Source of the DNA: a virus | IMG/VR virus record: IMGVR_UViG_3300010885_012777 | Span: 1-26,491 of that record | Length of the DNA: 26,491 nt | Strand: one strand, 5' to 3' | In this document: positions 2,697 to 23,767 of the stretch, piece by piece | How the letters are laid out: each line of letters begins with the position of its first letter | Position numbering within the stretch: position 1 is the stretch's first letter | Position numbers and translations under genes: made by a program | Notes under the pieces: generated by a model | What the model saw: the letters and a program-made list of their open reading frames with translations, nothing else | The model's database searches: none | Told to the model about the DNA's origin: nothing

Positions 2697-3740
2697 ATGG
2701 CCATTGTTGGCTCAACTGCCCTGACTTACGCCGACTGGGCGAAAAGGATGGACGACGACTATCGCACTGCGATGATCATCGAACTCCTTTCCCAGACGAA
2801 TGAAATCCTCGATGACATGCTGGTCGTCGAAGGCAACCTCCCAACCGGACATAAGACCACCGTCCGTACCGGCCTCCCTCAGGCCACTTGGCGCCTTCTG
2901 AACCAAGGCGTTCCGAATGCCAAGTCGACCACCGCGCAGATCGTCGACACCTGTGGCAACCTCGAAACCTACTCGGTGATCGACAAGGACATCGCTGACC
3001 TCAACGGCAACACCGCTGAGTTCCGCCTGTCTGAAGTCCGCGCCTTCCTCGAAGGTATGTCGCAGCAGGTTGCTTCGACGCTAATCTACGGCAACCAAGG
3101 TGTGAACCCGGAACGCTTCACCGGCTTTGCCCCTCGCTACTCGACCCTGTCTACGACTGCTTCCCAGACCGCCAACAACGTCCTCAACGCAGGCGGTACA
3201 GGCTCGACGAACACTTCCCTCTACATCGTCGTCTGGGGTGCTGACACTTGGCACGCGACCTTCCCCAAGGGCAAGATCACGGGCCTCCAGCATCGGGACA
3301 TGGGCGAGTGGCCGGTACAGGATTCGGCAGGCAACACCTACCAAGCCTACCGCGATCACTTCAAGTGGGAGATCGGTCTTGTCTCACGCGACTGGCGCTA
3401 TTGCGTCCGCGTTGCGAACATCGACATCACCCAGTTGACCGGCGTCTCCGCTGCGAACCTGATCAACCTGATCGTCCGCGGTCTCTACAAACTCCCGACT
3501 GCTCCCGCAGGCGCCACCGCTATCCAGACTTCGGACACTCCCGAAATCCGGGCTGACATGGGCCGCACGGTTATCTACTGCAACCGCGTGATCCGAACCT
3601 ACCTTGACCTTCAGGCCATGAATAAGACTAACGTCTTGCTCCGTCTTGAAGAGTTCAACGGCGAGGTCGTCACCACCTTCCGCGGCATCCCAATCCGTAC
3701 TTGCGATGCTATCCTCAACAATGAGACCGCGTTGGTCTAA
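2697..3740 (+). CDS. Major capsid protein (BPP-1 Bbp17-like)
   Basis: A 347-residue protein, the expected size for an HK97-fold major capsid protein without a large prodomain. The N-terminal stretch (LTYADWAKRMDDD, ELLSQTNEILDDMLVVEGNL, PTGHKTTVRTGLPQATWRLL) and the later DLNGNTAEFRLSEVRAFLEG are characteristic of the BPP-1-type capsid proteins of podophages. It would form the icosahedral shell with the scaffold as assembly template and the next gene product as an external cement. The ATG has GGAG eight bases upstream, at the end of an inverted-repeat arm, which may matter for its high, timed expression. The gene is G+C-rich with no sign of disruption. Confidence 0.94.
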   Translation: MAIVGSTALTYADWAKRMDDDYRTAMIIELLSQTNEILDDMLVVEGNLPTGHKTTVRTGLPQATWRLLNQGVPNAKSTTAQIVDTCGNLETYSVIDKDIADLNGNTAEFRLSEVRAFLEGMSQQVASTLIYGNQGVNPERFTGFAPRYSTLSTTASQTANNVLNAGGTGSTNTSLYIVVWGADTWHATFPKGKITGLQHRDMGEWPVQDSAGNTYQAYRDHFKWEIGLVSRDWRYCVRVANIDITQLTGVSAANLINLIVRGLYKLPTAPAGATAIQTSDTPEIRADMGRTVIYCNRVIRTYLDLQAMNKTNVLLRLEEFNGEVVTTFRGIPIRTCDAILNNETALV

Positions 3741-3753
3741 GGGAGTCGATCAG

Positions 3754-4299
3754 ATGATTCTTGACGCATTCCAAATGTTCGATCTGCCTTCTGCCCCGCG
3801 CAATCTCGCGCAGGTGGTTGGCACTTACGCCTCTACCAACACGCTCGACTACGGAATCACCTCTGGTATTCCGGCGTCCTCGGCTGGCGGTGGCGCCCGC
3901 GATATGGGTGTCGGTGATGACCCGGCGCTGAAGCTCCTTGTGCAGGTCACCACGACCTTCACCTCTGGCGGCGCCGGCACGTTGGCTGTTGCCTTGCAGG
4001 GTGCGGTTGATGATGGCACCGGTGCACCGGCTGCCTTCAGCACTTGGTGGTCCTCGCCTGCCTACGCTCTGGCCTCGCTGAACGCCGGCTCTCGCCTACT
4101 CGACATGGACTTCCCGCGTCCGCCTGACGGCATTGCAGTTCCGCGCTTCGTGCGCCTATTGTACTCCGTAGCTGGCGCAACCATGACGGCCGGTCAGATC
4201 GTCGCAGGCGTTGTCCTCGATCGTCCGGACCAGATGTACCAAGGCACTGACAACTCGATCATCGGTGGATACCCTGCCGGTATCACGGTTGCGAACTAA
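3754..4299 (+). CDS. Capsid cement protein (Bbp16-like)
   Basis: A 181-residue protein from ATG 3754, preceded by AAGGGAG with eight bases spacing. The open frame extends further upstream but overlaps the capsid gene. It begins MILDAFQMFDL and contains GGGARDMGVGDDPALKLLVQ, a run of alternating beta-strand residues (TLAVALQGAVDD), WWSSPAYALASLNAGSRLL, RFVRLLYSVAG and VVLDRPDQ. This order matches the Bbp16-like cement family encoded just after the capsid gene in BPP-1-like phages. Such proteins bind the outside of the expanded capsid at three-fold or quasi-three-fold positions and stabilise it. Position and motifs agree. Confidence 0.88.
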   Translation: MILDAFQMFDLPSAPRNLAQVVGTYASTNTLDYGITSGIPASSAGGGARDMGVGDDPALKLLVQVTTTFTSGGAGTLAVALQGAVDDGTGAPAAFSTWWSSPAYALASLNAGSRLLDMDFPRPPDGIAVPRFVRLLYSVAGATMTAGQIVAGVVLDRPDQMYQGTDNSIIGGYPAGITVAN

Positions 4300-4309: not shown

Positions 4310-4798
4310 GTGAGCAAGCTCAAACGCTGGCTTCTGGGTCTAGGCTTAGTCGGGGCACTTGCCTCCGGCTTTGCTTGGGCCCAAGTCCCAGCCACTCTCA
4401 ACATCACCGGCAACGAGATTGTTCTCGGGGCGTTGCCGGGAGGTGGTTCACAGATTGCTATGCCTGCCTACATTCTACGGGGAGGTGCCAACCACACCCT
4501 CGTCGCGGCAGGCACTACGGTCTCGACCCAAGTTGCTGCTACCGCCTCTAGCGTTCTTGCTACTGGCGCTATCACCACATGGGCCGTCAACCTCCCAACC
4601 GCTCCCTATACAGGACAGCGCGTTATCATCAACTGCCCGGGTGGTTCCGTTACCACCCTGACGATCACCGCAACCTTGCCTGCTAGTGTAGCGATTGTCG
4701 GAACCAACCCGACCTCTTGCACCTCTGGCGGCACGATAGCTCAAGGATCTGGCTGGGAGTATTCCACCACAGCCAACACTTGGTATCGGTTCCTGTAG
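4310..4798 (+). CDS. Exported phage protein with fibre-like C-terminal domain
   Basis: A 162-residue protein starting at GTG 4310. Residues 1-24 form a Sec-type signal peptide: basic KLKRW, a hydrophobic core, and an AWA|QV cleavage site. The mature part is beta-rich, with TLNITGNEIVLG near the start. It ends in a segment (LPTAPYTGQRVIINCPGG, then VTTLTITATLPASVAIVGTN and ANTWYRFL) of a type that I know from the ends of phage tail-fibre and fibre-associated proteins. Two cysteines in the mature part could pair. It opens a run of five signal-peptide proteins. A soluble periplasmic or surface role, or a structural role reached through the periplasm, is possible; the specific function is unknown. 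Confidence 0.75.
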   Translation: MSKLKRWLLGLGLVGALASGFAWAQVPATLNITGNEIVLGALPGGGSQIAMPAYILRGGANHTLVAAGTTVSTQVAATASSVLATGAITTWAVNLPTAPYTGQRVIINCPGGSVTTLTITATLPASVAIVGTNPTSCTSGGTIAQGSGWEYSTTANTWYRFL

Positions 4799-4801
4799 GA
4801 G
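4797..4801 (+). promoter_or_regulatory. Shine-Dalgarno discriminating two adjacent ATGs
   Basis: AGGAG overlaps the preceding TAG stop. It is three bases from ATG 4805 and six bases from ATG 4808, so the second ATG is better spaced. Starting at 4808 removes a single methionine from the product. Confidence 0.55.
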
Positions 4802-4807
4802 AGAATG

Positions 4808-5275
4808 ATGAACCTCAAGCGTCTCGCCCTTCCGCTCCTCGCAGCCTTGGCAATTGGCCTTGGCGGTGTCGTAGCGCAGAACATCACCAAATCGGTTCAG
4901 CTGTCGCAGGACGGCTCAGGCCCGATTGGCTTCGACACCACCAATGGTGTCTACTTCCCGGGCCATCTGAACTCCACCAGCACGACGCCGTCCTACGATG
5001 GTGCCTCGTGTGGCGTGGCTCAGTCTATTTCTGGCGTCAGCACTTCCCGCTCGATCGCTGGTACCGACACGGCTGGTACTCTCCAGACCGGCGGCACCGC
5101 GACCCAGTGTCAGGTGGTCTTCGCCCGAGCCTACCTCTCGACTCCGTGGTGTGTGTTCTCATCCAACACAGGCGCAAGCCCTGTTGGTTGGACCGTCTCC
5201 ACGGCGGGCTTCAACGTCACCATGGCATCAGCCGCTGGCCTTCGGGTCAGCTACTCCTGCATAAGCGCAAGCTAA
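4808..5275 (+). CDS. Exported Cys-containing phage protein, probable fibre/decoration domain
   Basis: A 155-residue protein from ATG 4808 (156 residues from the adjacent ATG 4805). Residues 1-23 are a Sec signal peptide (MNLKRLALPLLAALA, ending VVA|QN). The body has VQLSQDGSGPIGFDTTNGVYF, then a C-terminal beta-rich module with SIAGTDTAGTLQTGGTATQC, VVFARAYLSTPWCVF and LRVSYSC. This 'GTDxAGTLxxG ... C ... P-C ... Y-x-C' layout recurs in phage virion proteins and fibres. All four mature cysteines lie in this module, which suits disulfide formation after export. The stop overlaps the start of the membrane-protein gene (TAATG), implying translational coupling. The exact role is not known. Confidence 0.75.
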   Translation: MNLKRLALPLLAALAIGLGGVVAQNITKSVQLSQDGSGPIGFDTTNGVYFPGHLNSTSTTPSYDGASCGVAQSISGVSTSRSIAGTDTAGTLQTGGTATQCQVVFARAYLSTPWCVFSSNTGASPVGWTVSTAGFNVTMASAAGLRVSYSCISAS

Positions 5276-6360
5276 TGTTCTGGCTCGGCCTAATCAGTTC
5301 GACTGCGTTTGTTCCGGGTTACACCGGCGCTACGTTGCCGACTGGTTGGGCCGTGCTTTCCTGTCTCCTCCCCCTGACCCTTTGGAGCAAGGCTGAAGTA
5401 GGCCCGCTCCATTGGGTGCTTTTTGCCTTCCTAGGCTACGCGGCAGCTTCGCTCTTGTGGACCACGAACGTCTTGAATGGAATTGAGGCCTTGTGGATGT
5501 TGTCGATTGTAGCCTTGGCCTTTCGCCTAGGATCAACGGACCTCTCCCTCCCAGCTCTTTGGAAAGGCCTCGCCTATGGCCTTGGGGTTTCATCGGTCGT
5601 CTGCATCTTCCAATGGTTCTATTTCGAGCCAGTCCTTCATCTCAACTGGAACCCGCCGGGCTTGATGTATAACTCAGCCAACCTAGGCGCGATCTGCGGG
5701 CTGGTGGTTGTGGCCCTTGCTACAGAGAAGCTTTGGTGGCATATTGCCCTAGTGGCTCCGGCCTTAGTTCTCAGTCACTCACGTGCAGGGTTAGCCATTG
5801 CAGCCATTGGTCTCTTAGCTTGCTGGGTCCGTCGGCCTGTAGTGATCGCCTGTGTTGCCTTGGCTGGCTTCGCTGCCATTACCTTCCATCCTTCCTCTTC
5901 CGACATCGAACGCTTCAACATCTGGTTCGCCACTTGGGACCTCCTCACGCCTTTCGGCCACGGCGCTGCCTCCTACCTTGGCCTTTGGATCGCCACATCG
6001 GCAGGCATTATGATCCCGGAGTATGCACACAATGAATGGCTCCAGTTTGCTTTCGAGTACGGCGCCGCGGCAGCAATTCCAATCGGGGTCATGGGGTTCG
6101 TCCTTACCCAAGGGGAACATAAACTATTTCCCTGCGCCATCGCCTTCTTCGCCCTTGCCTGCATTTCCTACCCGCTTCACTCACCCCTCACTGCACTGGT
6201 TGGCGCAGTCGCTGCGGGTAGGGTTGTTAGTGATTGGGATAGCCTTTGGCTTCTGCGCGGCATCCGCCGACTTCCTTTCCTATCGTGGGTACCTTCGCCA
6301 AGAGCAGATGCTAGTTCGTTTGGCCGCGCATATCTTCCCATTCAACCATCAACTTCGTAA
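5275..6360 (+). CDS. O-antigen ligase/polymerase-like polytopic membrane protein
   Basis: A 361-residue integral membrane protein from ATG 5275; the frame is open further upstream but that part lies in the preceding gene. I count roughly nine to ten hydrophobic segments. SHSRAGLAIAAIGLLA (Arg about residue 170) and the late-loop motif YAHNEWLQFAFEYGAAAAIP (His about residue 252) match the Arg-containing helix and the HN-x-(Y/W)-L-Q-x-x-x-E-x-G signature of the O-antigen ligase/polymerase (WaaL/Wzy, Wzy_C) superfamily. Those enzymes join polysaccharide chains to lipid A core or polymerise repeat units on the periplasmic face of the inner membrane. In a phage this could alter host surface polysaccharide (superinfection exclusion or seroconversion) or glycosylate exported proteins; both are inference. 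Flanking genes encode signal-peptide proteins. The family-like C-terminus seems to continue in the +1 frame after about 6216, so the last 45 or so residues given by this frame may not be the native ones. Confidence 0.75.
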   Translation: MFWLGLISSTAFVPGYTGATLPTGWAVLSCLLPLTLWSKAEVGPLHWVLFAFLGYAAASLLWTTNVLNGIEALWMLSIVALAFRLGSTDLSLPALWKGLAYGLGVSSVVCIFQWFYFEPVLHLNWNPPGLMYNSANLGAICGLVVVALATEKLWWHIALVAPALVLSHSRAGLAIAAIGLLACWVRRPVVIACVALAGFAAITFHPSSSDIERFNIWFATWDLLTPFGHGAASYLGLWIATSAGIMIPEYAHNEWLQFAFEYGAAAAIPIGVMGFVLTQGEHKLFPCAIAFFALACISYPLHSPLTALVGAVAAGRVVSDWDSLWLLRGIRRLPFLSWVPSPRADASSFGRAYLPIQPSTS

Positions 6361-6367
6361 CAGGTGA
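6218..6367 (+). other. Out-of-frame continuation of the membrane protein's C-terminus
   Basis: In the +1 frame, 6218-6364 encodes 49 residues (VGLLVIGIAFGFCAASADFL, then SYRGYLRQEQMLVRLA and AHIFPFNHQLRNR), ending in TGA 6365-6367. This looks like a final transmembrane helix followed by a basic helix and an FPxNxxLR motif of the kind found at the ends of O-antigen ligase-like proteins. The annotated frame instead ends in a Ser/Pro/Arg-rich tail without that character. The TGA lies three bases before the next ATG, overlapping its ribosome binding site (AGGTGA). The crossover must lie between about 6190 and 6230; the GGG run at 6216-6218 is a candidate. It could be a real mutation, a sequencing indel or a programmed +1 shift. 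Confidence 0.55.
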
Positions 6368-6370
6368 AGC

Positions 6371-6787
6371 ATGAAAAGACTTCTTCTCCTCCTAGCTCTT
6401 TTGCTTGCACCAGCGATTGCTTCAGCGCAGGCGGTGGGACCGTCAGGCCCGGCTTGTAACAAGTCCTTCCAAGTCTCGCAGGCAGCGACGGTCCTTACTA
6501 AGGTTGTCTCAGGCATTGCCAATCAATCCATTTCCCTTTGTGGTTGGTCCGCCAACTCTGGCGCTGCCGCTTCCACTTGGCAACTCCAATACGGCACCGG
6601 CACTAATTGCGGAACTGGTGGCACAGCCATCACCCCAGTCTACTCCTTGGCGATCAACGGTGTGCAGGTCGATCACCAAGGCTCGGCCTTCATCTCCCTT
6701 GCAGGCGGCGCTGCTCCAGCGGACCTTTGCCTAGTCACCACTGGCACTGGCCCGTTGCAGATTATGATCTATTACTCACAACAATAG
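6371..6787 (+). CDS. Small exported four-cysteine phage protein
   Basis: A 138-residue protein starting at ATG 6371, with AGGTGA just upstream. It has a textbook signal peptide: MKRLLLLLALLLAPAIASA, cleaved before Gln 20. The mature domain of about 119 residues is beta-rich, with WQLQYGTGTNCGTGG in the middle and GTGPLQIMIYYSQQ at the end, and contains four cysteines. I recognise this layout from uncharacterised small phage proteins near tail genes but not a named function. It follows the O-antigen-ligase-like gene and precedes two leaderless phage proteins. A periplasmic or virion-associated adhesive domain is an inference. Confidence 0.75.
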   Translation: MKRLLLLLALLLAPAIASAQAVGPSGPACNKSFQVSQAATVLTKVVSGIANQSISLCGWSANSGAAASTWQLQYGTGTNCGTGGTAITPVYSLAINGVQVDHQGSAFISLAGGAAPADLCLVTTGTGPLQIMIYYSQQ

Positions 6788-6796
6788 GAGGGCCAC

Positions 6797-7354
6797 ATGG
6801 CTCGTTGGAAACTTCTTGCCTCTCACTACCTGAACGTCCCCGGTACCGAATGGGAATACAAAGAGATCGACCGCACGACTGGTCGGCCGAAGCTGCGGAA
6901 GTTCCCTGTTCCGCTGTTGCTCGATCCGGGTCAGTACGCGGATTGCAACTATCGCGATACTGTCAATGGCGATCCTGAGATCATCGTCTGTCATGAAGGC
7001 AAAGGTCTTGACAAGGACATCATCTTCGTTGGCGATCCGACTCCGGATATGCTCCCGCTCGATGACGAGGCCAAGGCTATCTCTGCTACCTTCGCGGGCA
7101 AGTGGGGACACCCGATTGAATCGCTTGAGGCCAATGGCCCGAGCTATTCGGAGCAGCTGCTGAACAAGCTTCAGGAAGAAGTCGCAGACGTTCGATCGAA
7201 GACCACCAGCAATCAAGTCGAGGGAATGTCTGAACTCCTCACGGCGATGACACAGATGATGAAGCAGAATCAGGAGATGATGTCGGCGATTCTCGGTGGT
7301 GGACCCAAGCCGATTGCCACCAAAGCCCTCTCTGCCTCTGGCCGTAAGGTCTAA
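6797..7354 (+). CDS. Conserved-type phage protein, unknown function, with C-terminal helix
   Basis: A 185-residue leaderless protein with a strong ribosome binding site (AGGAGG at 6786-6791). Residues 1-105 (WKLLASHYLNVPGTEWEYKE, DRTTGRPKLRKF, then GKGLDKDIIFVGDPTPDM and PLDDEAKAIS) follow a pattern I associate with a conserved phage protein of unknown function located among tail genes. Residues 120-165 are a likely coiled coil (LNKLQEEVADVRSK, then a Met/Gln-rich MTQMMKQNQEMMSAIL stretch), followed by a short basic tail. It is a cytoplasmic or structural protein in the midst of exported ones. No catalytic motif is visible. Confidence 0.75.
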   Translation: MARWKLLASHYLNVPGTEWEYKEIDRTTGRPKLRKFPVPLLLDPGQYADCNYRDTVNGDPEIIVCHEGKGLDKDIIFVGDPTPDMLPLDDEAKAISATFAGKWGHPIESLEANGPSYSEQLLNKLQEEVADVRSKTTSNQVEGMSELLTAMTQMMKQNQEMMSAILGGGPKPIATKALSASGRKV

Positions 7355-7357
7355 CCC

Positions 7358-7786
7358 ATGCCCTCACAGACGGACTTGGATCAAAGCGGAACCTTTCGGC
7401 AGTACGTCCGCCGATGGCTGGGTCCGTCTGTAGGATGGGTGCTGTCGCCAGATGATAACGTCTTGGCAATCTCTGTGGCTGGGACATATGCCCCGGTTAA
7501 TAACACTACCTTAATCACTGTCTCTGTCAATGGTGTGGTGATTATCAATCTCCCAGATTGCTTCAAGGGTGTGATCCCAGCGAACTCACTTCCCGGGAAG
7601 TTCCTTGCCCTTCCTCTGACCATCACTGACATTGGCGGCTTTGCCTCAGCCCAGCCGATCACCATCAACGCTCCAGCCGGTCGTTTCATCATGGGCCTTG
7701 CTTCGATCTCAATCGCCAACGCCTATGGCGCATTCACCCTCCTCCCCGACATCGACACCGGCAACTGGAATGAACAAGGAGCCTAA
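7358..7786 (+). CDS. Beta-rich phage protein, probably structural
   Basis: A 142-residue protein with AAGGT eight bases before the ATG. It has no signal peptide. The sequence is rich in Val, Ile, Thr and Asn with alternating polarity (LITVSVNGVVIINLPDCFKG, QPITINAPAGRFIMGLASIS), suggesting a beta-sandwich, and ends in an acidic/amide tail. It lies just before the gene for a fibre-like exported protein, and its last codons carry the AAGGAG ribosome binding site of that gene. A tail or decoration component is plausible, but I do not recognise the family. Confidence 0.68.
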   Translation: MPSQTDLDQSGTFRQYVRRWLGPSVGWVLSPDDNVLAISVAGTYAPVNNTTLITVSVNGVVIINLPDCFKGVIPANSLPGKFLALPLTITDIGGFASAQPITINAPAGRFIMGLASISIANAYGAFTLLPDIDTGNWNEQGA

Positions 7787-7787
7787 G

Positions 7788-8639
7788 ATGAAGAAGCTAC
7801 TTCTAGCCTTAGGGCTTCTCCTTGCTCTTGCCTCAGGCGCCTCTGCTCAATGCACCGGGGTGTTCCCAGCAGGCTATGGTTGTGGCAATTCTAGCGTAGC
7901 TTCTGCGACCCCAAAGGCAATTCCATTTACCAACTTCGTGCCGCAGATTGCCAATCAGACCATCCTCAGCAATATCTCTGGCGGTACTGCGGCTGCCTCT
8001 GGCAACAGCCTCACAGCAATCCTCGACAACATTCTTGGCTCTACTCAGGGCCTTGTCATCTACCGCGGTGCATCCACGTGGACCACGTTAGCGAATGCAG
8101 CAGGATCGTTGACCAACAATGGCTCGGGCACGATCTCTTGGTTAGCAGCAGGCTCAGGCACGGTCACCAGCGTCAGCATCACCGCAGGCACAGGCATTAC
8201 GCAAAGCGGATCGCCTGTTACAACCTCAGGCGCGATCACAGTTAACGTTGACAAGGCTACCGCAGCTAATCTTGAAGCAGGTACTTCCAACAAAGTCCTC
8301 ACCTCTGACATCATCTACGACAGTGAAGTCACAATCACCTTTGCCTCATCGCAGACATGGAACTTCTCCACCTTCCTTAACGCACGCACGACTCTCACAG
8401 CCAACACTACCTCTTTGACCTGCTCCAATATCAAGGCCTCCCAGTCCGGCACAATCTCGCTAGTCCAAGATGGAACTGGCTCGCGCACGATGGTTGCTGG
8501 ATGGTGTAGCCAGTTTCGTTGGGCAGGCGGTACGCGAGGAGTCCTCACCACCACAGCCTCAGCTATCGACGCGCTGTTCTACACTTGTGTTAGCACCTCC
8601 ATCTGCTACGTCTCCTTAAGCAAAGCACAGGCGAACTAA
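7788..8639 (+). CDS. Tail-fibre-like protein with a signal peptide
   Basis: A 283-residue protein from ATG 7788, six bases after AAGGAG. Residues 1-20 form a signal peptide (MKKLLLALGLLLALASGASA) followed by QCTGVFPAGYGCGN. The body has hallmarks of phage fibre shafts: a GLVIYRGASTWTTLANA block, Gly/Ser/Thr-rich repeats (GSGTVTSVSITAGTGITQSG), and ATAANLEAGTSNKVLTSDII, a connector common before fibre C-terminal domains. The final 100 or so residues form a beta-rich domain with four of the six cysteines. It is probably a receptor-binding or fibre component. A cleavable leader on a fibre is odd for a virion assembled in the cytoplasm, although such leaders do occur in some phage lineages. Confidence 0.78.
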   Translation: MKKLLLALGLLLALASGASAQCTGVFPAGYGCGNSSVASATPKAIPFTNFVPQIANQTILSNISGGTAAASGNSLTAILDNILGSTQGLVIYRGASTWTTLANAAGSLTNNGSGTISWLAAGSGTVTSVSITAGTGITQSGSPVTTSGAITVNVDKATAANLEAGTSNKVLTSDIIYDSEVTITFASSQTWNFSTFLNARTTLTANTTSLTCSNIKASQSGTISLVQDGTGSRTMVAGWCSQFRWAGGTRGVLTTTASAIDALFYTCVSTSICYVSLSKAQAN

Positions 8640-9401
8640 ATGCGTAAGCCCATTGCACTCAGCTTCTTAAGTCTCTTTGTTGCCCTTGGTGCCTTAGCCA
8701 ATCCTTCTGCGACGCAACAGCCATTGATGCTTGGTCAAACTATCGGCCCTGCGATTGGTGTGCCTGCAAGCATAGCCACTACTGCTATTTGGAGTACTGC
8801 CCAGACTGTACGAACCCTAACGACTACGTCTAATATAGTCTCTGGCGATCTTGTTATAGTCGCGGTGTCCTACTATACAGGTACGGGCGCTTCTGTTTCT
8901 ACAGTTTCGGATGGGACTAATAGTTATTCTTTAGGTGTGTCGGCGCGCGGTGCTTCAGGTACTCCGGCTGCAGTTGAACTATGGTACAAGTCTAATGCAT
9001 CTGCTGTGGGTTCTGGAGCCACCATTACGCTGACCTTCACCAGCGGTACAGCCGGTGGTAACTTAGCAGCAGCGCGAGTCACCGGTATTAACACGTCTTC
9101 GCCCTTAGATAAAACAGCAACAGACGTAACGACCACAAGTACGCCAACTGTTACAACTGCTGCACTTACGCAGACGAACGAAATAGCTTTTGGCATACAA
9201 GGTGGATACAACCAAACTACATATACCGTAGCTTCTGGTTTCACCAACATAATGAGTTCCAATAACACCGGCCAAGTTGTTTTAGGACTGGACTATAAAG
9301 TAGTCGCATCTACATCGGCCATAACATACCAACCTACCTCTAGTGGTGGTGGTGGACCTGCCAGCATGGGTGCTGCTGTGGCAACTTTCAAAGGCTTTTA
9401 A
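8640..9401 (+). CDS. Exported beta-rich adhesin-like phage protein
   Basis: A 253-residue protein whose ATG directly abuts the previous stop (TAAATG) with only a weak ribosome binding site, so translation is probably coupled. Residues 1-20 resemble a signal peptide (MRKPIALSFLSLFVALGALA|NPS). The remainder is an Ig-like or jelly-roll-type repeat region rich in Thr, Ser, Gly and Ala (VSDGTNSYSLG, AAVELWYKSNA, NEIAFGIQGGYNQ), as in phage and bacterial adhesion domains. Unlike the other four exported proteins it has no cysteine. The DNA is visibly more AT-rich (27 and 23 G+C in the 60-base lines at 8821 and 9181), suggesting recent acquisition of a receptor-binding domain. The function is inferred. 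Confidence 0.72.
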   Translation: MRKPIALSFLSLFVALGALANPSATQQPLMLGQTIGPAIGVPASIATTAIWSTAQTVRTLTTTSNIVSGDLVIVAVSYYTGTGASVSTVSDGTNSYSLGVSARGASGTPAAVELWYKSNASAVGSGATITLTFTSGTAGGNLAAARVTGINTSSPLDKTATDVTTTSTPTVTTAALTQTNEIAFGIQGGYNQTTYTVASGFTNIMSSNNTGQVVLGLDYKVVASTSAITYQPTSSGGGGPASMGAAVATFKGF

Positions 9402-15078: not shown

Positions 15079-16835
15079 TGCCTCAGGTTCCTTACAGCCC
15101 TGTTCCGCAGGTTCAGCAGCAGATCAATCCTGTTGGCGGCGTTCACGTTGACGCACCAGCGGCTGCCTTTGGCGGCGCCAGTGCAGCGGCCTTAGGTCAA
15201 ATTGGCCACGCGATCTCAGGCGTTGGCGATGAGATGTTCAAGCGGGCGGTTGCGCTCCAGCAACTTGACAACGATACTAAGGCGAAGCAGGCAGACTCAG
15301 ACTACATGATCTCGGCGGGCGATTTGCATGCGCAGTTTGGTGCGCTGCAAGGACAGGATGCTGTCAAGGCCTATCCGAAGTACTCGGCTGATCTCAAGGC
15401 CGAGAGGGAACGGATTCGCGAATCGTTGCCGAATGACATGGTTAAGAAGATGTATGACTCGCAGAGCCTGTCAACAATGGGTCGGAGCATCTTCAATGGG
15501 GCTGGGCATGCAGCGGCGGCGCAGAAGAAGTATGTCATCGGCACTGCTCAGGCCCAGATGGAGCTTGATGCCAAGGCAGTCTCTGACTCTCCGGGCGATG
15601 AAGCATTGTTCGAACAGAAGCTCCAACGGACGAAGGCGAACGCAGTACAGGTTGCACTTGCTGAAGGAAAGCCGCCCGAGTCACCACAAGGAAAGCTATT
15701 GGTTGCAGCTGCTATAAGTAATCAATGGTACAATAAAATCAAAGGCCTTAGTCAGACTTCGCCTTTCGAAGCCAAGGAGATGTTGGATAGACATTCAACT
15801 GAGTTGCTTGACCCGGATCGAATAAAGTTGGATGCCATTGTGACCTCGTCTGGGCGGGCTGTAGGCGCGGCGAACATCGCCAATGAAGTCTATAATGCGG
15901 GTAAGGGCACCGATGACAAGCCCGGGAAGTCCTTCGAGGACATGGAGGCAGAGGTCCGGAAGAAGGCGAAGGCTGTGGCGCCTAAGGACCCGATCCTAGA
16001 ACAGCATGCCGTCTCGGCCTTCAAGGGCCACTATAACAATGCCAAGTATGTGGAGCGTCAGCAGGAACTGACCAATATGGAAACAGTCAAGGGCGGGATT
16101 CAGACCTTTGGCGGAACGACGGTGCAGCAGCTAAGGGCTGACCCGAAGGTTGCAGCGGCGATTGACGCTCTGCCGAAGTCGAAGACCCTAGACCTCCAAG
16201 GGACCATCAACGGATTCAACAACGCCCGGGACCTGCAGACGAAGGAGTCTGCAATGATCAGGCTCAATGGTCTTTCGCACAACGACGTGGAGGCCTTCCT
16301 CAATACCGATGTGACTAAGGAGCCTCTCTCTAAGGGCGATATGATCAGCTTAATGAACAAGCAGGCGAAGCTGAAGGCGAATCCATCGACTGATCCAAGG
16401 GTGTCGAAGGCTCTTGGTGTTCTTCGTAACGCGCGTGGGGCTGAACTACAGGCGCTTGGTATCTACGCACGCACAACTAGCCCAGATAACAAGGAAGACT
16501 ACGATCACTACACTGGGGCCCTTCAGTCGGCTATCGAAGTCTGGATGGAGGACCACGGCAACAAGCCGCCTGATGCGAAGACTATCGCTAATGAGATCGG
16601 TCCTTCGGTCATTCGCCAACGCACCGAGAAGGGTTGGCTATGGGATAGCAAGGTTCCGTTCTACACTCAGACCGTGCCGGAAGCATTCTCCACTCGTATC
16701 AAAGCCGACGTGCAAGCACAGATGGGTTATGAGCCGACGGAGCAAGAGGTCTATAAGGCCTACGTTCGGATGCAGTATCTGAAGTTCTACAAGAAGCAGC
16801 CTAAGGCTCCTAAGGATCAAGGCAAGGCCCCATGA
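15078..16835 (+). CDS. Internal virion (ejection) protein, T7 gp15-like
   Basis: A 585-residue, mostly alpha-helical protein. ATG 15078 is chosen because it forms a TGATG overlap with the preceding stop; a TTG three bases earlier is in frame but less likely. N-terminal residues 1-45 are Pro/Val/Gly-rich (PQVPYSPVPQVQQQ, VHVDAPAAAFGG). The rest is a long Lys/Gln/Ala-rich helical body typical of gp15-like proteins, which form a periplasmic tube for genome ejection together with the gp16-like protein. T7 gp15 is about 747 residues, so this is a shorter variant. The assignment relies on order, size and N-terminal pattern rather than on a catalytic motif. The C-terminus ends in a basic Lys/Pro/Ala-rich tail, and its stop overlaps the next gene by four bases (ATGA). 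Confidence 0.8.
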   Translation: MPQVPYSPVPQVQQQINPVGGVHVDAPAAAFGGASAAALGQIGHAISGVGDEMFKRAVALQQLDNDTKAKQADSDYMISAGDLHAQFGALQGQDAVKAYPKYSADLKAERERIRESLPNDMVKKMYDSQSLSTMGRSIFNGAGHAAAAQKKYVIGTAQAQMELDAKAVSDSPGDEALFEQKLQRTKANAVQVALAEGKPPESPQGKLLVAAAISNQWYNKIKGLSQTSPFEAKEMLDRHSTELLDPDRIKLDAIVTSSGRAVGAANIANEVYNAGKGTDDKPGKSFEDMEAEVRKKAKAVAPKDPILEQHAVSAFKGHYNNAKYVERQQELTNMETVKGGIQTFGGTTVQQLRADPKVAAAIDALPKSKTLDLQGTINGFNNARDLQTKESAMIRLNGLSHNDVEAFLNTDVTKEPLSKGDMISLMNKQAKLKANPSTDPRVSKALGVLRNARGAELQALGIYARTTSPDNKEDYDHYTGALQSAIEVWMEDHGNKPPDAKTIANEIGPSVIRQRTEKGWLWDSKVPFYTQTVPEAFSTRIKADVQAQMGYEPTEQEVYKAYVRMQYLKFYKKQPKAPKDQGKAP

Positions 16836-19800
16836 GCAATCTAGATTATGATGACGGCGAGTTTAACCCGGTTGACTTCATTGCCAACGAACGTCGAAGG
16901 GTTATGGGGACGGCAGTTGGCGGCCTTGAGGCTGATCCGGAGAAGGCTGCGCGAGCGGTTCAGCTATCGCGGGCGACTGGTGTTCCTGCACCAGTGATCT
17001 CTGGCGATCAGGAGAACTTTGAGCAACAGCATAAGACGGCGCTGACTTCGTCGCTCCTGACCAACAACGAATACCTCCGCAGCTACATCGCCTCCAACCC
17101 TATGGCGGCGAAGGTTTCGAACGACGACTACGCGCAGCTGGATGTTGCCTCAGAGAAAATCTCTGGACTGAAAGAGCTACCATTTGCTCGTCGCTTAGCC
17201 TTCTCTATCTCACGCGGGATCGAGGATTCGCTAGGTTCGACAATCGAAGGTATGGGCGGGCCGAAGGGTTTCACCGATCGGTTCAAGACCATCGGCAAGC
17301 AGAAGATGCTGGAGGCGGTTGGCGAAGATGAAGCGATGGCCCTTGAGGCCTCGGCCAATACCTTCACTGGCAAGTTTGGGCAAGCGGTTGGTGGTATGGT
17401 ACCCGCCCTTGCTGCGGCTGTGGCTGGTGGCCTACCGGGTGCAGGCCTTCAACAAGCTTTTTCTATGGCGAACCAGTTTGAGGAACAGGCGGACCTCGCA
17501 GGTGCGTCGGAGAACACAAAGGGCACGGCCTATACAGCAGGCTTTACTGTTGGCACTGTGTTCGGCGTGTTGCCTATTCACGTCTTGCAACAGGGTGGCA
17601 TTGCTGTCAAGGGCATAGGCAGTTGGACAGTCAATCGTGCCATTCAAGCCTTGCAGATGGCTGGACTCATGGGCGTGATTGGCGAAGGCCAAGAGGCTTC
17701 GTCTAAGATTGTTCAGCGGATGCTGTATGATCCGACGGCCGAATATACCTTTGATGAAGAACGCTTTGCTATTAGCATGTTGCTAGGCGGCTTCATGGGT
17801 GCAGCCTTTGGCAAGGTGAAGCCATATGTGGATTCGGGAAAGGATATTCCTGTTGGTCTTGATCCGATAACGGATGGAATTAAGGCTGAGCAGGCGAAGG
17901 CAGATGGGGACAGCCTACAAGAGGCGCTGAAGGAATCAACAGCCTCATCTACACGTGAGCGAAGCCCTGACCTTTATGCCGACTTTGCTCGTCAGCAAGT
18001 AGGCAATCGCGAGATCGGCATTTCCCCTGACGCGGTTCGCAAGCTCTATGGCGAGAAGCTACCGGAGGTGGATGATGGCATCCTTGGTTGGGTACCGGAC
18101 CTTCAGTTCAAGCTAGATGCAGCGGAAGCCTCTGGGCTGGATGTGAAGGTGCCGCTGGCTGATTGGCTGGCGAACGTAGAGCCAGATGTGGCGAAGCAGC
18201 TTCATGACTTCATTCGGGTGCGGGATGGAGGGGTGACGATTGAGGAAGGGAAGGTTCTGAAGGCTTCGGCGATGGTCGAGGCGTTTCATGGATCGAGACA
18301 TGAGTTTGATGCGTTCTCTTTAGAGAAGGTTGGCGCTGGCGAAGGTAATCAGTCATATGGACATGGACTCTACTTTGCTGAGAGTGAGGGTGTAGCGGAT
18401 AACTACAAGCTCGCTGGTGATCCTGCTGCTCGTGAAGCACGTCGCAAGAACAATCTGGCTAAGCTTCGTGGCGAGCCTGTAACTGAAGAAGCTCCCCAAG
18501 GCAATCGTTATCGGGTCAAGATCAATGTAGATAAGGAAGCTTTGTTAGATTGGGACAAAGACCTTATGGATCAGCCTGCTGGAAAGGCGGCGTTAGAAAG
18601 GATAGACCCTGCATTTCGAGAGACCCTGGATAGCTATCTCGACGAACATGGCCAAGCTGCCTTGGATGATCTCAACGGCATGCAGCTTCAGCGGTTGTTG
18701 GAACGGTTTGCTACTGAGGATATGCTTCCCGGTGTTGAATCAGATGGTAGCAATCCTAGAAAGGATGCTTCGGATTATCTCAAGAGCCTTGGCATCCCCG
18801 GGATTAAGTATCTGGATCAGGGGTCGCGGGCGAACGCTGGATATATACGAGATATTCGTGAGTTCGGTGAAAGCAACATTCGAGATACGCAGGTATTAGA
18901 AACTAAACTTCGTGAGAAGGAAGAATTGATTGCAGCTAAACCTGATGATGATATGCTTCGTGCCACAGTCAAGGGCATGGATCGTGAGATAACTCAATTA
19001 CAAAATAAGATCGCTGAGCGTGAACAGCGTATTGGAGAGATGCAAAGGATTCTTGATGAAGAGTCCACCTCCAACTTCGTCATCTTCGACGATTCTCTAA
19101 TCGAAATAACCCACAAGAACAACGAGGCGGTGCAGGCAGTTCGGCGAAGCGCGGGCCTTGAGCATCCCCTTGCGGACCTCTACGGCGCTGAGGACTTCGT
19201 CTATGGCGAGAACATCACCGCGAAGATCAAGCCGAAGGAACTCTACACCGCTCACGAGCTTGAGCTAGAGGCAGCGGTTAAGGAAGAAATGGATCGCATC
19301 CTGCCGAAGGGTGGGTTGGAGATTCAATCGGCTCATGAGATCACCATGGATGGCGAAAGCCCCCAAGGTGTTCATATGATGTTTGATAAGCGAATGCCAT
19401 TGGCATTGTATTCGCTTGTTGCAGAAGACCCTATTGGAATTAAGCGCCATGAGATCATGCATCATCTACGAGGGATGGGGTTCTGGTCGCCGAGTGAATG
19501 GAGTACGCTAGCGTATGCTGCGGTTGAGCAGGGATGGATTAAGAAGTACGACATCAATGCTCGGTATCCTAGGCTGAGTTCGGTTGGGAAGATTGAGGAA
19601 GCGGTAGCCGAGGCCTTCCGTGAATGGCGTCGGGTCGGAGACAAGGGATTGCCGACTCCTGAGCGGGCTCTCTTCCGCAAGATGGAGATAGTAGTCCGAG
19701 CGATCCAGCGGGCGTTTGCTAAGGCCTTTGGGAAAGAGAAGGCACCGACTTGGGAAGAGTTGTTTGATCGTGTGGATGAGGGAGAGATTGGATCGAGGGA

Positions 19801-22800
19801 AGGGACCAAGCCGATCGTGGAAGGGGCTAAGGCCTCACAAGAAGAGCCAACTCTCACCTCTCAAATAAAGAATATCCATAACGAACGCACTGCCGCTGCT
19901 GAAGCTGAAATAGCTAAGCTTGAACAAGAACATGATAAGCTTGTAGATGTTGCTTCTAAAGGAAGTAATGAGGCTGAGGCTAAGGCTAAACAAGCTGGTG
20001 TAACTGTCAATAGCAGTTCTGATCTACTCCAGTTCATGTCACCAGAAGCTATTGCTGCGCATAAAAGAATTCGTGAGATAGGCAATGAGATTCGTAAGAA
20101 GTCAGCCGAAGCTAATTATGATCGAGTGCTTCAGATTCTGCCAGAAGGCTTTACTGCCGTACGCGATATACAGAAGAATGATTGGGGCGGTGCTGAGTGG
20201 GCTAAGGCTGTAGGCACTGAAGATCAACATGTCATCGGTATTCATAATAAGGAAGGCAGCCTTGTTGGTAATCTCAGTGGGTTCCTTCATCACGAGAAGT
20301 GGTTTGAGGATTTCCTAAAGAACCCGTCTCAGGAATCTGTGCATGAACGTGCTATGCGGGCAGCTGAGGAGGCAAGCCAGAACGATGGTAATGTTACAGA
20401 TTTGGCTTTCGAAAAGCAAAGACCAGAACTTCAAGACATTGCCAATAATATAGATCAATCAACAAAGCGTACACCCGGAGAAGCTACAGTACAGTCTATT
20501 CATCGAGTTAAGGCTTCTGCCTCGCAAGGCGAACTCGACGTCACCCGTATGGAAGACAAGGCCGTCTTCGATAAGGCCGCGGCGATTGGGATGACGGTCG
20601 ATCAGTACCGAAGGTATATGAACCTGATCGAATCCCGACGCATTGAGGACATGGAAGCCGATCTCAAGCGTGCTACTAAGGCCGAGGAACGTCGGCAGTC
20701 GAAGGAGTGGAAGGAGAACAAGGCTGGGCTAAGGACAGAAGTCGCTGAGCAGATGGCCCAACGCCCTGACATTCAAGCGCTTCGGTTTGTGGAGGACAAG
20801 AAGATCAACCTGACTCCTGAGACAGCCAACTCCCTTGCCGAGTACTTCGGCTATCAAACCGGCGCTGAGATGATTGAGCGGGTGAAGGCCTTGCAGGAAC
20901 AGCGGAAGGCCTCGGGCCTGAACTCCTACGAGTTCACCCGTCGCCTGATTGACGTCGAAACCGATCGCCGGATGGAGCAACGGTATGGGGACCTTGGGGA
21001 GAACATTCTCAAAGAAGCCAAGGATCAAGTTCTGTCGGAGACGCAGCTGGACTTGCTTCATGAAGAGACTCTGGCCCTCGCCGAACAGGCTAGGGTGCAG
21101 TTGCCGATTCCGCAGAAGGAGCTCCGGGCCCAGATCGTAGAGGGCGTTCAGAAGATGGAGTTGAAGAACCTATCCTCTGATCATCTGCTGGAAGCTGCTG
21201 GTCGTGCCGGGCGCGATATGGAAATGGCCCACCTTAAGGGAGATATTCAAGAAGCCTTCCGCCAGAAGCAACGCCAGTTCATCGCTGTTGCGATGGCCAA
21301 AGAGGCGATGAAGATTGAAGCCGACGCGGCGAAGCTGGACAAGTTGGCGAAGAAATACGAAGGGCGTGATCTGCCGAAGATCGACCCGGCTACCGCAGCC
21401 TACACTCAGCAGTTGCTCCAGCAGGCTGGCTACAAGGTCAAGCTGATGCCGCAGGAGATCGAGCGGGAAATTGCTGCTCATGGCCATGGATCACTTGGAG
21501 ACTATGTGCAGCATCTTGTGGACTTCGGTTGGGAGCCGGAGTTGAGTGAGAACATCCTTAGCCGCGGTGGGAAGCCACTGGAGCAGGCGAAGGTCTCGGA
21601 GTTCTATGAGCTAAAGGACGCAGCGGATAGCCTTGACTTCATCGGCAGGAATCAGATGAAGATCGATCTCGCTGGTGAGAAGATGGATTACAAGGATTGG
21701 AAGGAAACCACCCTTGAGAAGATTCGCTCCAGACCAGTCCGCGACATTACCAAGGCCGAGGCCGGAGGCAAGGAAGGAAGTTGGCTCTATCGGCTGGATG
21801 CTCCGCTTACGCGCATGGAAGAGATTGTTAAGGACCTTGACCTCCGGGAAGAACTTGGTCCGTTGTACAAGGCCTTGATTGTTCCTTTCGAACTCTCCAA
21901 GGCCAAGTCCTACAACATGCTCAATGAACTCTCGAAAGAGATCAAGAGCATCAATGGGTTCAATAAGAAATGGCGCCGGAGTCTGGAAGACAACATCCCC
22001 AATGACTTCGTCTATGATACCTATAACGAAACCTTGTTCAAGCTCAACCGCTGGAACATGGTGAAGATGATGTTGAATTGGGGCAACGAGAGTAACGCCC
22101 TGAAGATGATTGACGGGATCGCCCGGGCAGGTGGCGAAGTCAAGCCGTCGAAGGAATTCCTCAACTACATCCATGCTCGGCTGGAGGACATGTTCGCCCA
22201 ACACGCTACGCCTGAGGACTGGAACTTTGTTAAGAAGATTTGGTCAGTCTTCGACGGCTATAAGGGCGAGGTGGAGACGATGAATCGAAACCTTGGGGGC
22301 AAGATTCCCAAGTGGATTGAAGGGCGGGAGATACAGACGCCCGATGGGCCGATCACTGGCGGGTACTTCCCCTTGATCCCAGACAAGAGACGCAATCTAG
22401 GGCCGATGGCTGAAGGGAAGAAGATAACTGGGACAGGTCCGATGAGCGAGGACTACTTCCGGGCCACGACGAATCAGAAGTATTTAGAACAGCGGACTGG
22501 GGCTCGGTATTTTGTCGACATAACGAATGGCCCAGAGCAGTTGATCGGCAGGCTGCAACAGGTCATCCACGACATCTCCTATCGGGACTTCGTCAAGACC
22601 GCTGGGCAGGTGATCTACGATAAGGAGATTATGGCCGCGATCACGAAGCACTACGGCCCTGAGTACGCGGCCCAGATGGTGCCTTGGCTGAAGCGGATTG
22701 CTAATCAGGTGACGGTGAATGAGGCGGAGTTGCAGGGGTTCAATGACATCTTAGGTGCGGCACGGCTCAACCTTGTGGCTGCGGCGCTCCCACTTAATTA

Positions 22801-23767
22801 TACCGTCATGCTTTCGCCTTCGATGGGCACACTCAATCTGAAGCAGATGGCCTTGTTTAATGCTGATCGGACCGCCAACAAAGCGCTGGTGATGGAGAAC
22901 TCGAAGGAAATCCAGCACATGCTCTATTCGCTGGATCGGGATGTGAATCAAGCGCTTCGCACCCAGCTCGGCAAGCAAGGCTGGACAGCGTTCCAGCTGA
23001 AGTCGATGGAGTGGATGTTCTGGGGTCTGATTAAGGCCGAACAAGAGTTTCGAATGACGACGTTCTATGGCGAGTTCATGAAGCAGAAGGGGCTGGGCAA
23101 GAGTGACTTCGATGCCGGGCTTATTAGCGATAGCTTGATCCGTGAGCGACATGGATCGCAACATGTTGGTGATCTCCCAGCGTTGATGGCCAGCAATAAT
23201 GAATTTGTCAAGATGTCCACTGTGTTCATGGGCTACTTCTCCACTCAGCGGAACTGGATGCGGCAGATACCCGGACAGGTAAGAGCGGGAGATATGAGTG
23301 GTGTGGCTAAGACCCTATGGGGTACTATGGGTGTAGCGACAATTATGAATGCTTTGCTTTTCACAAAGACTCACGAGGATGAGAGTATGCTGCCTTGGGA
23401 GAAGGGTTTCTTTAAGTGGGCCTCACGAGCGGTCCTCAGCACCCCACTTCAGATGATTCCCTTTGTCCGCGATGCTTGGAACTACGCCACCGAAGGGATG
23501 CAACCAACCTCACCAATTGTAGGCTTGATGACTTCAGTTTATGAGACGATTAAGGACGGAGTTAAACTTGCTGAAGGCGGTCAGCCGAAGAACCCAATCA
23601 AGCATGGGATGAATACCCTTGGCGCCGTCTTTGGTGTTCCGGGCGCAATGCAGGCAGGGCGAACGGGTGAGTTCCTGAAGGACGTGGTGACTAAGGAACA
23701 ACGGCCGCGCGGCATCGTTGAATGGATGAGAGGCCTTGCCACAGGCGAAGCAAAGAGGAAGAAGTGA
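16832..23767 (+). CDS. Giant polyvalent ejection protein (gp16-like) with ART-like and zincin-like domains
   Basis: A 2311-residue protein, against about 1318 residues for T7 gp16. Residues 1-390 contain hydrophobic segments (around 190-205, 225-250 and 310-325) typical of membrane-crossing ejection proteins. Residues 395-480 form a connector seen in polyvalent proteins. Residues 484-760 look like an ART-PolyVal ADP-ribosyltransferase: FHGSRHEFDAFS (His 486), YGHGLYFAES (Tyr 514), YLKSLGIPGIKYLDQGSR and, at the end, NFVIFDDSLIEI (754 = second Asp), with a coiled-coil insert before it. Residues 830-930 carry HEIMHHL (His 873, Glu 874, His 877) and IEEAVAEAF (Glu 922/923/927), a gluzincin-like metalloprotease arrangement. 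Residues about 1007-1228 are encoded by AT-richer DNA and unrecognised. From 1235 a helical gp16-type C-terminal body follows. It would be packed in the capsid and ejected with the DNA, delivering these domains into the host. I see no lytic transglycosylase motif. Confidence 0.85.
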   Translation: MSNLDYDDGEFNPVDFIANERRRVMGTAVGGLEADPEKAARAVQLSRATGVPAPVISGDQENFEQQHKTALTSSLLTNNEYLRSYIASNPMAAKVSNDDYAQLDVASEKISGLKELPFARRLAFSISRGIEDSLGSTIEGMGGPKGFTDRFKTIGKQKMLEAVGEDEAMALEASANTFTGKFGQAVGGMVPALAAAVAGGLPGAGLQQAFSMANQFEEQADLAGASENTKGTAYTAGFTVGTVFGVLPIHVLQQGGIAVKGIGSWTVNRAIQALQMAGLMGVIGEGQEASSKIVQRMLYDPTAEYTFDEERFAISMLLGGFMGAAFGKVKPYVDSGKDIPVGLDPITDGIKAEQAKADGDSLQEALKESTASSTRERSPDLYADFARQQVGNREIGISPDAVRKLYGEKLPEVDDGILGWVPDLQFKLDAAEASGLDVKVPLADWLANVEPDVAKQLHDFIRVRDGGVTIEEGKVLKASAMVEAFHGSRHEFDAFSLEKVGAGEGNQSYGHGLYFAESEGVADNYKLAGDPAAREARRKNNLAKLRGEPVTEEAPQGNRYRVKINVDKEALLDWDKDLMDQPAGKAALERIDPAFRETLDSYLDEHGQAALDDLNGMQLQRLLERFATEDMLPGVESDGSNPRKDASDYLKSLGIPGIKYLDQGSRANAGYIRDIREFGESNIRDTQVLETKLREKEELIAAKPDDDMLRATVKGMDREITQLQNKIAEREQRIGEMQRILDEESTSNFVIFDDSLIEITHKNNEAVQAVRRSAGLEHPLADLYGAEDFVYGENITAKIKPKELYTAHELELEAAVKEEMDRILPKGGLEIQSAHEITMDGESPQGVHMMFDKRMPLALYSLVAEDPIGIKRHEIMHHLRGMGFWSPSEWSTLAYAAVEQGWIKKYDINARYPRLSSVGKIEEAVAEAFREWRRVGDKGLPTPERALFRKMEIVVRAIQRAFAKAFGKEKAPTWEELFDRVDEGEIGSREGTKPIVEGAKASQEEPTLTSQIKNIHNERTAAAEAEIAKLEQEHDKLVDVASKGSNEAEAKAKQAGVTVNSSSDLLQFMSPEAIAAHKRIREIGNEIRKKSAEANYDRVLQILPEGFTAVRDIQKNDWGGAEWAKAVGTEDQHVIGIHNKEGSLVGNLSGFLHHEKWFEDFLKNPSQESVHERAMRAAEEASQNDGNVTDLAFEKQRPELQDIANNIDQSTKRTPGEATVQSIHRVKASASQGELDVTRMEDKAVFDKAAAIGMTVDQYRRYMNLIESRRIEDMEADLKRATKAEERRQSKEWKENKAGLRTEVAEQMAQRPDIQALRFVEDKKINLTPETANSLAEYFGYQTGAEMIERVKALQEQRKASGLNSYEFTRRLIDVETDRRMEQRYGDLGENILKEAKDQVLSETQLDLLHEETLALAEQARVQLPIPQKELRAQIVEGVQKMELKNLSSDHLLEAAGRAGRDMEMAHLKGDIQEAFRQKQRQFIAVAMAKEAMKIEADAAKLDKLAKKYEGRDLPKIDPATAAYTQQLLQQAGYKVKLMPQEIEREIAAHGHGSLGDYVQHLVDFGWEPELSENILSRGGKPLEQAKVSEFYELKDAADSLDFIGRNQMKIDLAGEKMDYKDWKETTLEKIRSRPVRDITKAEAGGKEGSWLYRLDAPLTRMEEIVKDLDLREELGPLYKALIVPFELSKAKSYNMLNELSKEIKSINGFNKKWRRSLEDNIPNDFVYDTYNETLFKLNRWNMVKMMLNWGNESNALKMIDGIARAGGEVKPSKEFLNYIHARLEDMFAQHATPEDWNFVKKIWSVFDGYKGEVETMNRNLGGKIPKWIEGREIQTPDGPITGGYFPLIPDKRRNLGPMAEGKKITGTGPMSEDYFRATTNQKYLEQRTGARYFVDITNGPEQLIGRLQQVIHDISYRDFVKTAGQVIYDKEIMAAITKHYGPEYAAQMVPWLKRIANQVTVNEAELQGFNDILGAARLNLVAAALPLNYTVMLSPSMGTLNLKQMALFNADRTANKALVMENSKEIQHMLYSLDRDVNQALRTQLGKQGWTAFQLKSMEWMFWGLIKAEQEFRMTTFYGEFMKQKGLGKSDFDAGLISDSLIRERHGSQHVGDLPALMASNNEFVKMSTVFMGYFSTQRNWMRQIPGQVRAGDMSGVAKTLWGTMGVATIMNALLFTKTHEDESMLPWEKGFFKWASRAVLSTPLQMIPFVRDAWNYATEGMQPTSPIVGLMTSVYETIKDGVKLAEGGQPKNPIKHGMNTLGAVFGVPGAMQAGRTGEFLKDVVTKEQRPRGIVEWMRGLATGEAKRKK

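Follow-up and report, generated by a model that had tools for sequence, protein, structure and literature searches.

The locus described here raises the question of what a putative surface-glycan enzyme does within the virion genes of a phage. Phage polymerases of surface glycans are familiar as genes of temperate phages, in which they bring about serotype conversion of the lysogen. In the DNA analysed here (hereafter the window, 26,491 nucleotides of an IMG/VR virus record, a 26.5 kb contig from a soil phage whose own genome is incomplete), a gene encoding a protein with a Wzy_C domain lies inside the virion module of an epsilon15/BPP-1-like podovirus. The module contains the following features.

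2697..3740, plus strand: major capsid protein (MCP), epsilon15 gp7-like, the upstream anchor of the module (NCBIfam NF045672, E 1.7e-105; phrog_212, E 4.8e-84)
3754..4299, plus strand: Bbp16-like cement protein, the left border of a variable slot (PF21190, E 3.1e-11)
4310..4798, plus strand: exp1, a signal-peptide protein (MSKLKRWLLGLGLVGALASGFAWA/Q) with a GTG start after GGAGG (from sequence)
4805..5275, plus strand: exp2, a signal-peptide protein directly upstream of the Wzy_C gene (from sequence)
5275..6360, plus strand: polytopic membrane protein of 361 aa with a predicted Wzy_C/WaaL fold and with R170, R213 and H252 (H-x10-G) at catalytic positions (PF04932; AF2 model and Foldseek; alignment with Wzy-beta)
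6371..6787, plus strand: exp3, a signal-peptide protein directly downstream of the Wzy_C gene (from sequence; relatives are directly downstream of the Wzy_C gene in loci L120 and L132)
6797..7354, plus strand: g10, a conserved co-oriented gene that closes the slot on the right (most complete loci have a homologue)
7788..8639, plus strand: exp4, a signal-peptide protein with a tail-fibre-like C-terminal domain (tblastn to an annotated tail fiber)
8640..9401, plus strand: exp5, a signal-peptide protein (from sequence)

A preliminary description of this DNA had placed the Wzy_C gene at 5275-6367. Its start was right, but the gene runs from an ATG at 5275 to a stop at 6360, and 6367 is where an unrelated frame that overlaps it stops. 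The ATG shares one nucleotide with the stop codon of exp2 (TAATG), so that the Wzy_C gene overlaps translationally with a gene for an exported protein. From the MCP gene through 9401, every gene is on the plus strand with intergenic gaps of at most 13 bases, in the order MCP, Bbp16, two signal-peptide proteins, the Wzy_C gene, and then exported and tail genes, which agrees with the earlier placement of the gene between the cement gene and the tail genes. A family match was sought for exp5 and none was found. Elsewhere in the window, a 2311-aa protein (phrog_9880) is encoded at 16832-23767, and its stretch GSRHEFDAFSLEKVGAGEGNQSYGHGLYFAE reads like the ADP-ribosyltransferase fold of polyvalent phage proteins.

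Both sequence and structural modeling indicated that the protein is very probably a glycan transferase that lies in the inner membrane and belongs to the Wzy_C (WaaL/Wzy) superfamily, where the preliminary description had also placed it. Pfam PF04932 (Wzy_C) matched residues 158-267 of the 361-aa protein with E 1.3e-6 and 28.7 bits, slightly below the cut-off of 31.7, and the longer stop-to-stop frame in a six-frame search reached 32.1 bits, above the cut-off. A homologue from the same slot (L036) scored 38.2 bits, and the profile was matched by 13 of the 15 phage relatives. About ten to eleven membrane helices were predicted (Kyte-Doolittle and model), and the motifs SHSRAG and YAHNEWLQ, reported earlier, are both present, the latter belonging to an exact H-x10-G (H252...G263).

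The AlphaFold (AF2) model built on an alignment of the 15 phage relatives (pLDDT 80.4, pTM 0.80) has a WaaL-type GT-C membrane fold. In the comparison with WaaL that had been suggested at the outset, the sole Foldseek match in the PDB below E 0.001 was the O-antigen ligase WaaL (cryo-EM structure 7TPG_B; E 8.8e-6, probability 1.00, TM 0.55/0.51), although sequence identity to it is 16% and the rmsd to the model is 7 A. A weaker earlier model from fewer sequences also had WaaL 7TPG as its top match, followed by the SEDS protein RodA. NCBIfam and PHROGs offered no family for the protein, a tblastn search of 50,697 phage records gave no match for it or for L036, and a sequence search of the PDB gave nothing useful. 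The best viral structural match was an uncharacterised 434-aa protein of Arthrobacter phage Faja (BFVD A0A3G2KG04; probability 1.00, E 0.003), suggesting that WaaL-like proteins may be commoner among phages.

The only phage Wzy_C proteins of known function that were found are the Wzy-beta proteins of epsilon15 and Pseudomonas phage D3, both O-antigen polymerases, and residues were mapped onto them by MAFFT alignment, disregarding the cellular ORFs L230 and L232 (wrong frames) and L224 (empty). R213 corresponds to R270 of D3 and H252 to H300, both reported as essential in that enzyme, as are R254 and R272 (Taylor et al., PMC4815439). R170 aligns with R204 of D3 and R210 of epsilon15, and all three residues have counterparts in epsilon15 Wzy-beta. 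A lack of the conserved Arg and His, named in the preliminary description as evidence that would contradict the assignment, was therefore not encountered. D3 residues R254 and R272 are not conserved in the phage family, in whose 15 members R213, W217, G228, N253, G263 and P300 are invariant. In hhalign comparisons the similarity to epsilon15 Wzy-beta was very weak overall (E 0.005), and with D3 Wzy-beta the core was not aligned and gave no pairwise profile match.

A protein-similarity search recovered few near relatives: two contigs matched at 100%, and a third at 38%. Since the A1 alignment varied too much to be scanned with a degenerate pattern, relatives were collected by means of the capsid protein, which yielded a survey set of 173 distinct loci. 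This synteny survey, also among the earlier suggestions, located the Wzy_C gene in 15 loci, one of them a contig with the window's own version at 100%. The 15 distinct full-length phage copies occupy a common slot; wherever both borders are present, the gene is on the late strand between Bbp16 and g10, and it is found in 12 of 94 complete slots. The relatives are 19-38% identical to the window protein. On the capsid tree, presence and absence of the gene require 11 changes, at least seven of them forced by well-supported branches, a patchy inheritance which indicates that the gene was repeatedly gained or lost at one site.

Between the window and L004, dN is 0.64 and dS 1.24 (near saturation) for the Wzy_C gene, and 0.08 and 1.06 for the capsid gene. 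With similar dS values, dN below dS, and a far higher dN for the Wzy_C gene, both genes appear to have been co-inherited under constraint while the enzyme evolved much faster. Taken with the shared slot of the 15 copies, dN below dS places the observation well outside what chance would give. A glycan-specific enzyme is expected to diverge in this way, far more than the capsid. A recent bacterial origin was rejected, since the highest profile score among cellular Wzy_C proteins (Alphaproteobacteria, Acidobacteriota) was 61 bits, compared with 337 within the family, and no recent donor was seen.

Other observations were made on these loci. In L013 (6992-8889) two tandem Wzy_C paralogues, one of a short type and one of a long type, are joined by an ATGA overlap. 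L085 (JAIQFO010000051.1), a contig of 36 kb assigned to a Terriglobia MAG, carries the same module with the Wzy_C gene, and profile matches are commoner in Acidobacteriota genomes (29/199) than in those of Alphaproteobacteria (5/289); together these give a weak hint of Acidobacteriota as host.

Promoter-like and terminator-like patterns were no commoner than in shuffled sequences. From this and from the shared strand we infer that co-transcription of the Wzy_C gene with the virion genes, and hence its late expression, is likely. Twelve clade contigs of 44-50 kb, four of which are carriers, contain no tyrosine integrase or resolvase, and two carrier contigs appear by inspection to encode their own DNA polymerase, helicase and nuclease set. 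The window comes from an incomplete genome; from the clade contigs, which may likewise be incomplete, the phages of this clade are likely to be lytic. A plausible lysis cassette was recognized by sequence reading at 23.7-24.4 kb, consisting of a candidate M15-like endolysin and a small membrane protein.

Comparison with known systems places the unusual feature of this locus in its genomic position, since phage Wzy_C enzymes acting on surface glycans are already known. Epsilon15 shares the capsid lineage of the window phage (MCP and Bbp16-type cement protein), and its Wzy-beta is a polytopic protein of Wzy_C type in which the S-R, R...W, G-x-G and HN motifs align with those of the window protein. 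However, epsilon15 is a temperate, seroconverting phage whose wzy-beta lies on the strand opposite to the late genes; it follows the tailspike, and an inhibitor of the alpha-polymerase, lysis genes and the integrase lie next to it. Phage D3, whose R270 and H300, reported as essential, are matched in the window protein, is likewise seroconverting, and its wzy-beta is antisense to the late genes, between the fibre and acetylase genes and the lysis/integrase genes. The earlier statement that seroconversion genes usually lie near integration modules was thus right in substance. Temperate phages provide two more examples, in VarioGold (a Variovorax phage) and in a prophage of Acinetobacter (PMC9658991, PMC13228068). 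VG_p25 of VarioGold, an O-antigen ligase family protein with ten predicted TM segments, adjoins a signal-peptide gene (PMC9658991) as does the window gene, but it runs against the strand of the late genes and has lysis and integrase genes as its neighbours. The window gene, which is co-oriented within the virion genes, does not have the arrangement of a temperate-phage serotype-conversion gene outside the late operon.

The function that we tentatively prefer, and which has nearly as much chance of being right as of being wrong, is that of a late, periplasm-facing polymerase or ligase that would use host lipid-linked glycan and alter the host surface polysaccharide. Enzymes of the superfamily transfer undecaprenyl-diphosphate-linked glycan in the periplasm by means of essential Arg and His residues (PMC3643930, PMC4815439). 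By extension, the window protein would be produced late, at the time of the virion proteins, in an infection that appears lytic, and would take undecaprenyl-diphosphate-linked host glycan in the periplasm; R213, and probably also R170, would hold the diphosphate, and H252 of the H-x10-G would activate the acceptor. The glycan would then be joined to another glycan chain, the host surface polysaccharide bound by phages would be changed, and the producing cell and the released progeny may thereby be protected from adsorption or superinfection.

The preference for a polymerase or ligase comes from the characterised phage members, which are polymerases, from the missing PglL mark and from the hypervariable sequence. 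Whether the role is one of surface remodelling is finely balanced: a lytic phage that makes the enzyme late has little time left to alter a surface, and the constant neighbour of the gene is an exported protein and not a glycan gene. No other gene for LPS synthesis or for a Wzy inhibitor was recognised beside the Wzy_C gene.

The exported neighbours point to a second possible function. A block of Sec-signal-peptide proteins, some with tail-fibre-like domains, lies inside the virion module of the clade (4310-5275, 6371-6787 and 7788-9401 in the window, and the slots of most relatives), with signal peptides called by a simple pattern and not by a trained predictor. Residues 135-282 of exp4 are 36% identical to an annotated tail fiber of Caulobacter phage S2B (tblastn, E 2e-6). 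In carriers, long forms of the Wzy_C gene are preceded directly by exp2 and short forms by exp2b; the exceptions are L059 and L083, where an HNH-like ORF intervenes, and L013, where the second copy follows the first. Start and stop codons overlap with the upstream gene in ten of 13 cases (the window, L004, L120, L130, L132, L206, L013, L008, L085 and L027). In L083 the intervening ORF (5989-6336, between exp2b and the Wzy_C gene) is HNH-endonuclease-like, and a BNR_4 protein (7235-9211) is encoded directly 3' of the Wzy_C gene.

The protein might therefore be a dedicated O-oligosaccharyltransferase, which would transfer host lipid-linked glycan to Ser/Thr of the adjoining Sec-exported phage proteins, as PilO, TfpO and PglL do with pilins, so that sugar-coated fibre-like proteins would be presented on the cell or the virion. 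These bacterial enzymes belong to the Wzy_C superfamily, and a transferase gene that adjoins and is co-oriented with the gene for its exported target is a published hallmark of the PglL type (PMC3643930). The coupling to exported proteins ranks this function second, and exp2 or exp2b is found in 12 of 12 carriers as against 31 of 82 non-carriers (Fisher p 3e-5), a comparison in which the union of the two families was chosen post hoc. However, a phylogeny-aware test of the association was not significant (independent pairs averaging 2.8 for and 0 against), and the slot is rich in Sec-signal-peptide genes with or without the Wzy_C gene: exp1, exp2 and exp2b are common in phages that do not carry it, and the exp1 family occurs with and without it in 70 of 173 unique loci. 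No consistent difference in Ser/Thr content or low complexity was detected between exported neighbours with and without the Wzy_C gene. The PglL_A motif (PF15864) had no match at E <= 1 in any of the 15 relatives, which separates the window protein from PglL, although PilO-type enzymes also do not have PglL motifs (PMC3643930).

Adjacency and coupling thus lend circumstantial support to glycosylation of the neighbouring exported proteins, and a dedicated O-oligosaccharyltransferase is judged rather unlikely. A more specific proposal is unlikely, namely that lytic soil podoviruses carry their own periplasmic protein-glycosylation pair in the virion operon, made up of a fibre-like protein exported by Sec and a Wzy_C transferase translationally coupled to it. 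The transferase would add host O-antigen or capsule units to that protein, so that virions or infected cells would be coated with host sugar.

Variation at the catalytic positions bears on a third explanation, in which the protein would be a decoy or dominant-negative homologue of Wzy/WaaL. It would draw lipid-linked glycan or partner proteins away from the host enzyme and stop O-antigen assembly, so that the receptor would be lost late in infection. Fourteen of the 15 relatives retain R170, which L004 replaces by His, and in the six short forms (286-304 aa) Tyr occupies the column of the catalytic His, with a His three residues before the conserved Asn instead; these substitutions suggest that some copies may work differently. 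The phage proteins are also small, at 286-366 aa, whereas most cellular matches lie in open frames of about 420-870 aa. Nevertheless, H-x10-G is intact in the window and in all long forms, R213, W217, N253 and G263 are among the invariant residues, and the nearby His of the short forms is compatible with a shifted but active site. Variants whose catalytic positions are altered could have such a role, which is improbable as a general explanation.

Chance similarity of a non-glycan polytopic membrane protein (transporter, holin or exclusion protein) is highly improbable, and a holin or transporter was rejected, because the slightly low Pfam score and a lone weak PHROGs holin match in one of the 15 relatives (E 0.007) stand against WaaL as the only significant model match, the Wzy_C matches of most relatives, the aligned catalytic residues and the plausible lysis cassette elsewhere, so that no transporter or holin family, which the preliminary description had named as a contrary outcome, fits the protein.

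In conclusion, an enzyme class of lysogen serotype conversion is here encoded in the virion operon of apparently lytic phages, by a gene that has been replaced or lost again and again at a fixed slot, that evolves much faster than the capsid gene, and that is translationally coupled to exported, partly fibre-like proteins. If the enzyme remodels the host surface, glycan editing would also serve the last minutes of a lytic infection, in progeny release and competitor exclusion. If the exported proteins are its targets, this locus would represent a phage-encoded protein-glycosylation system.
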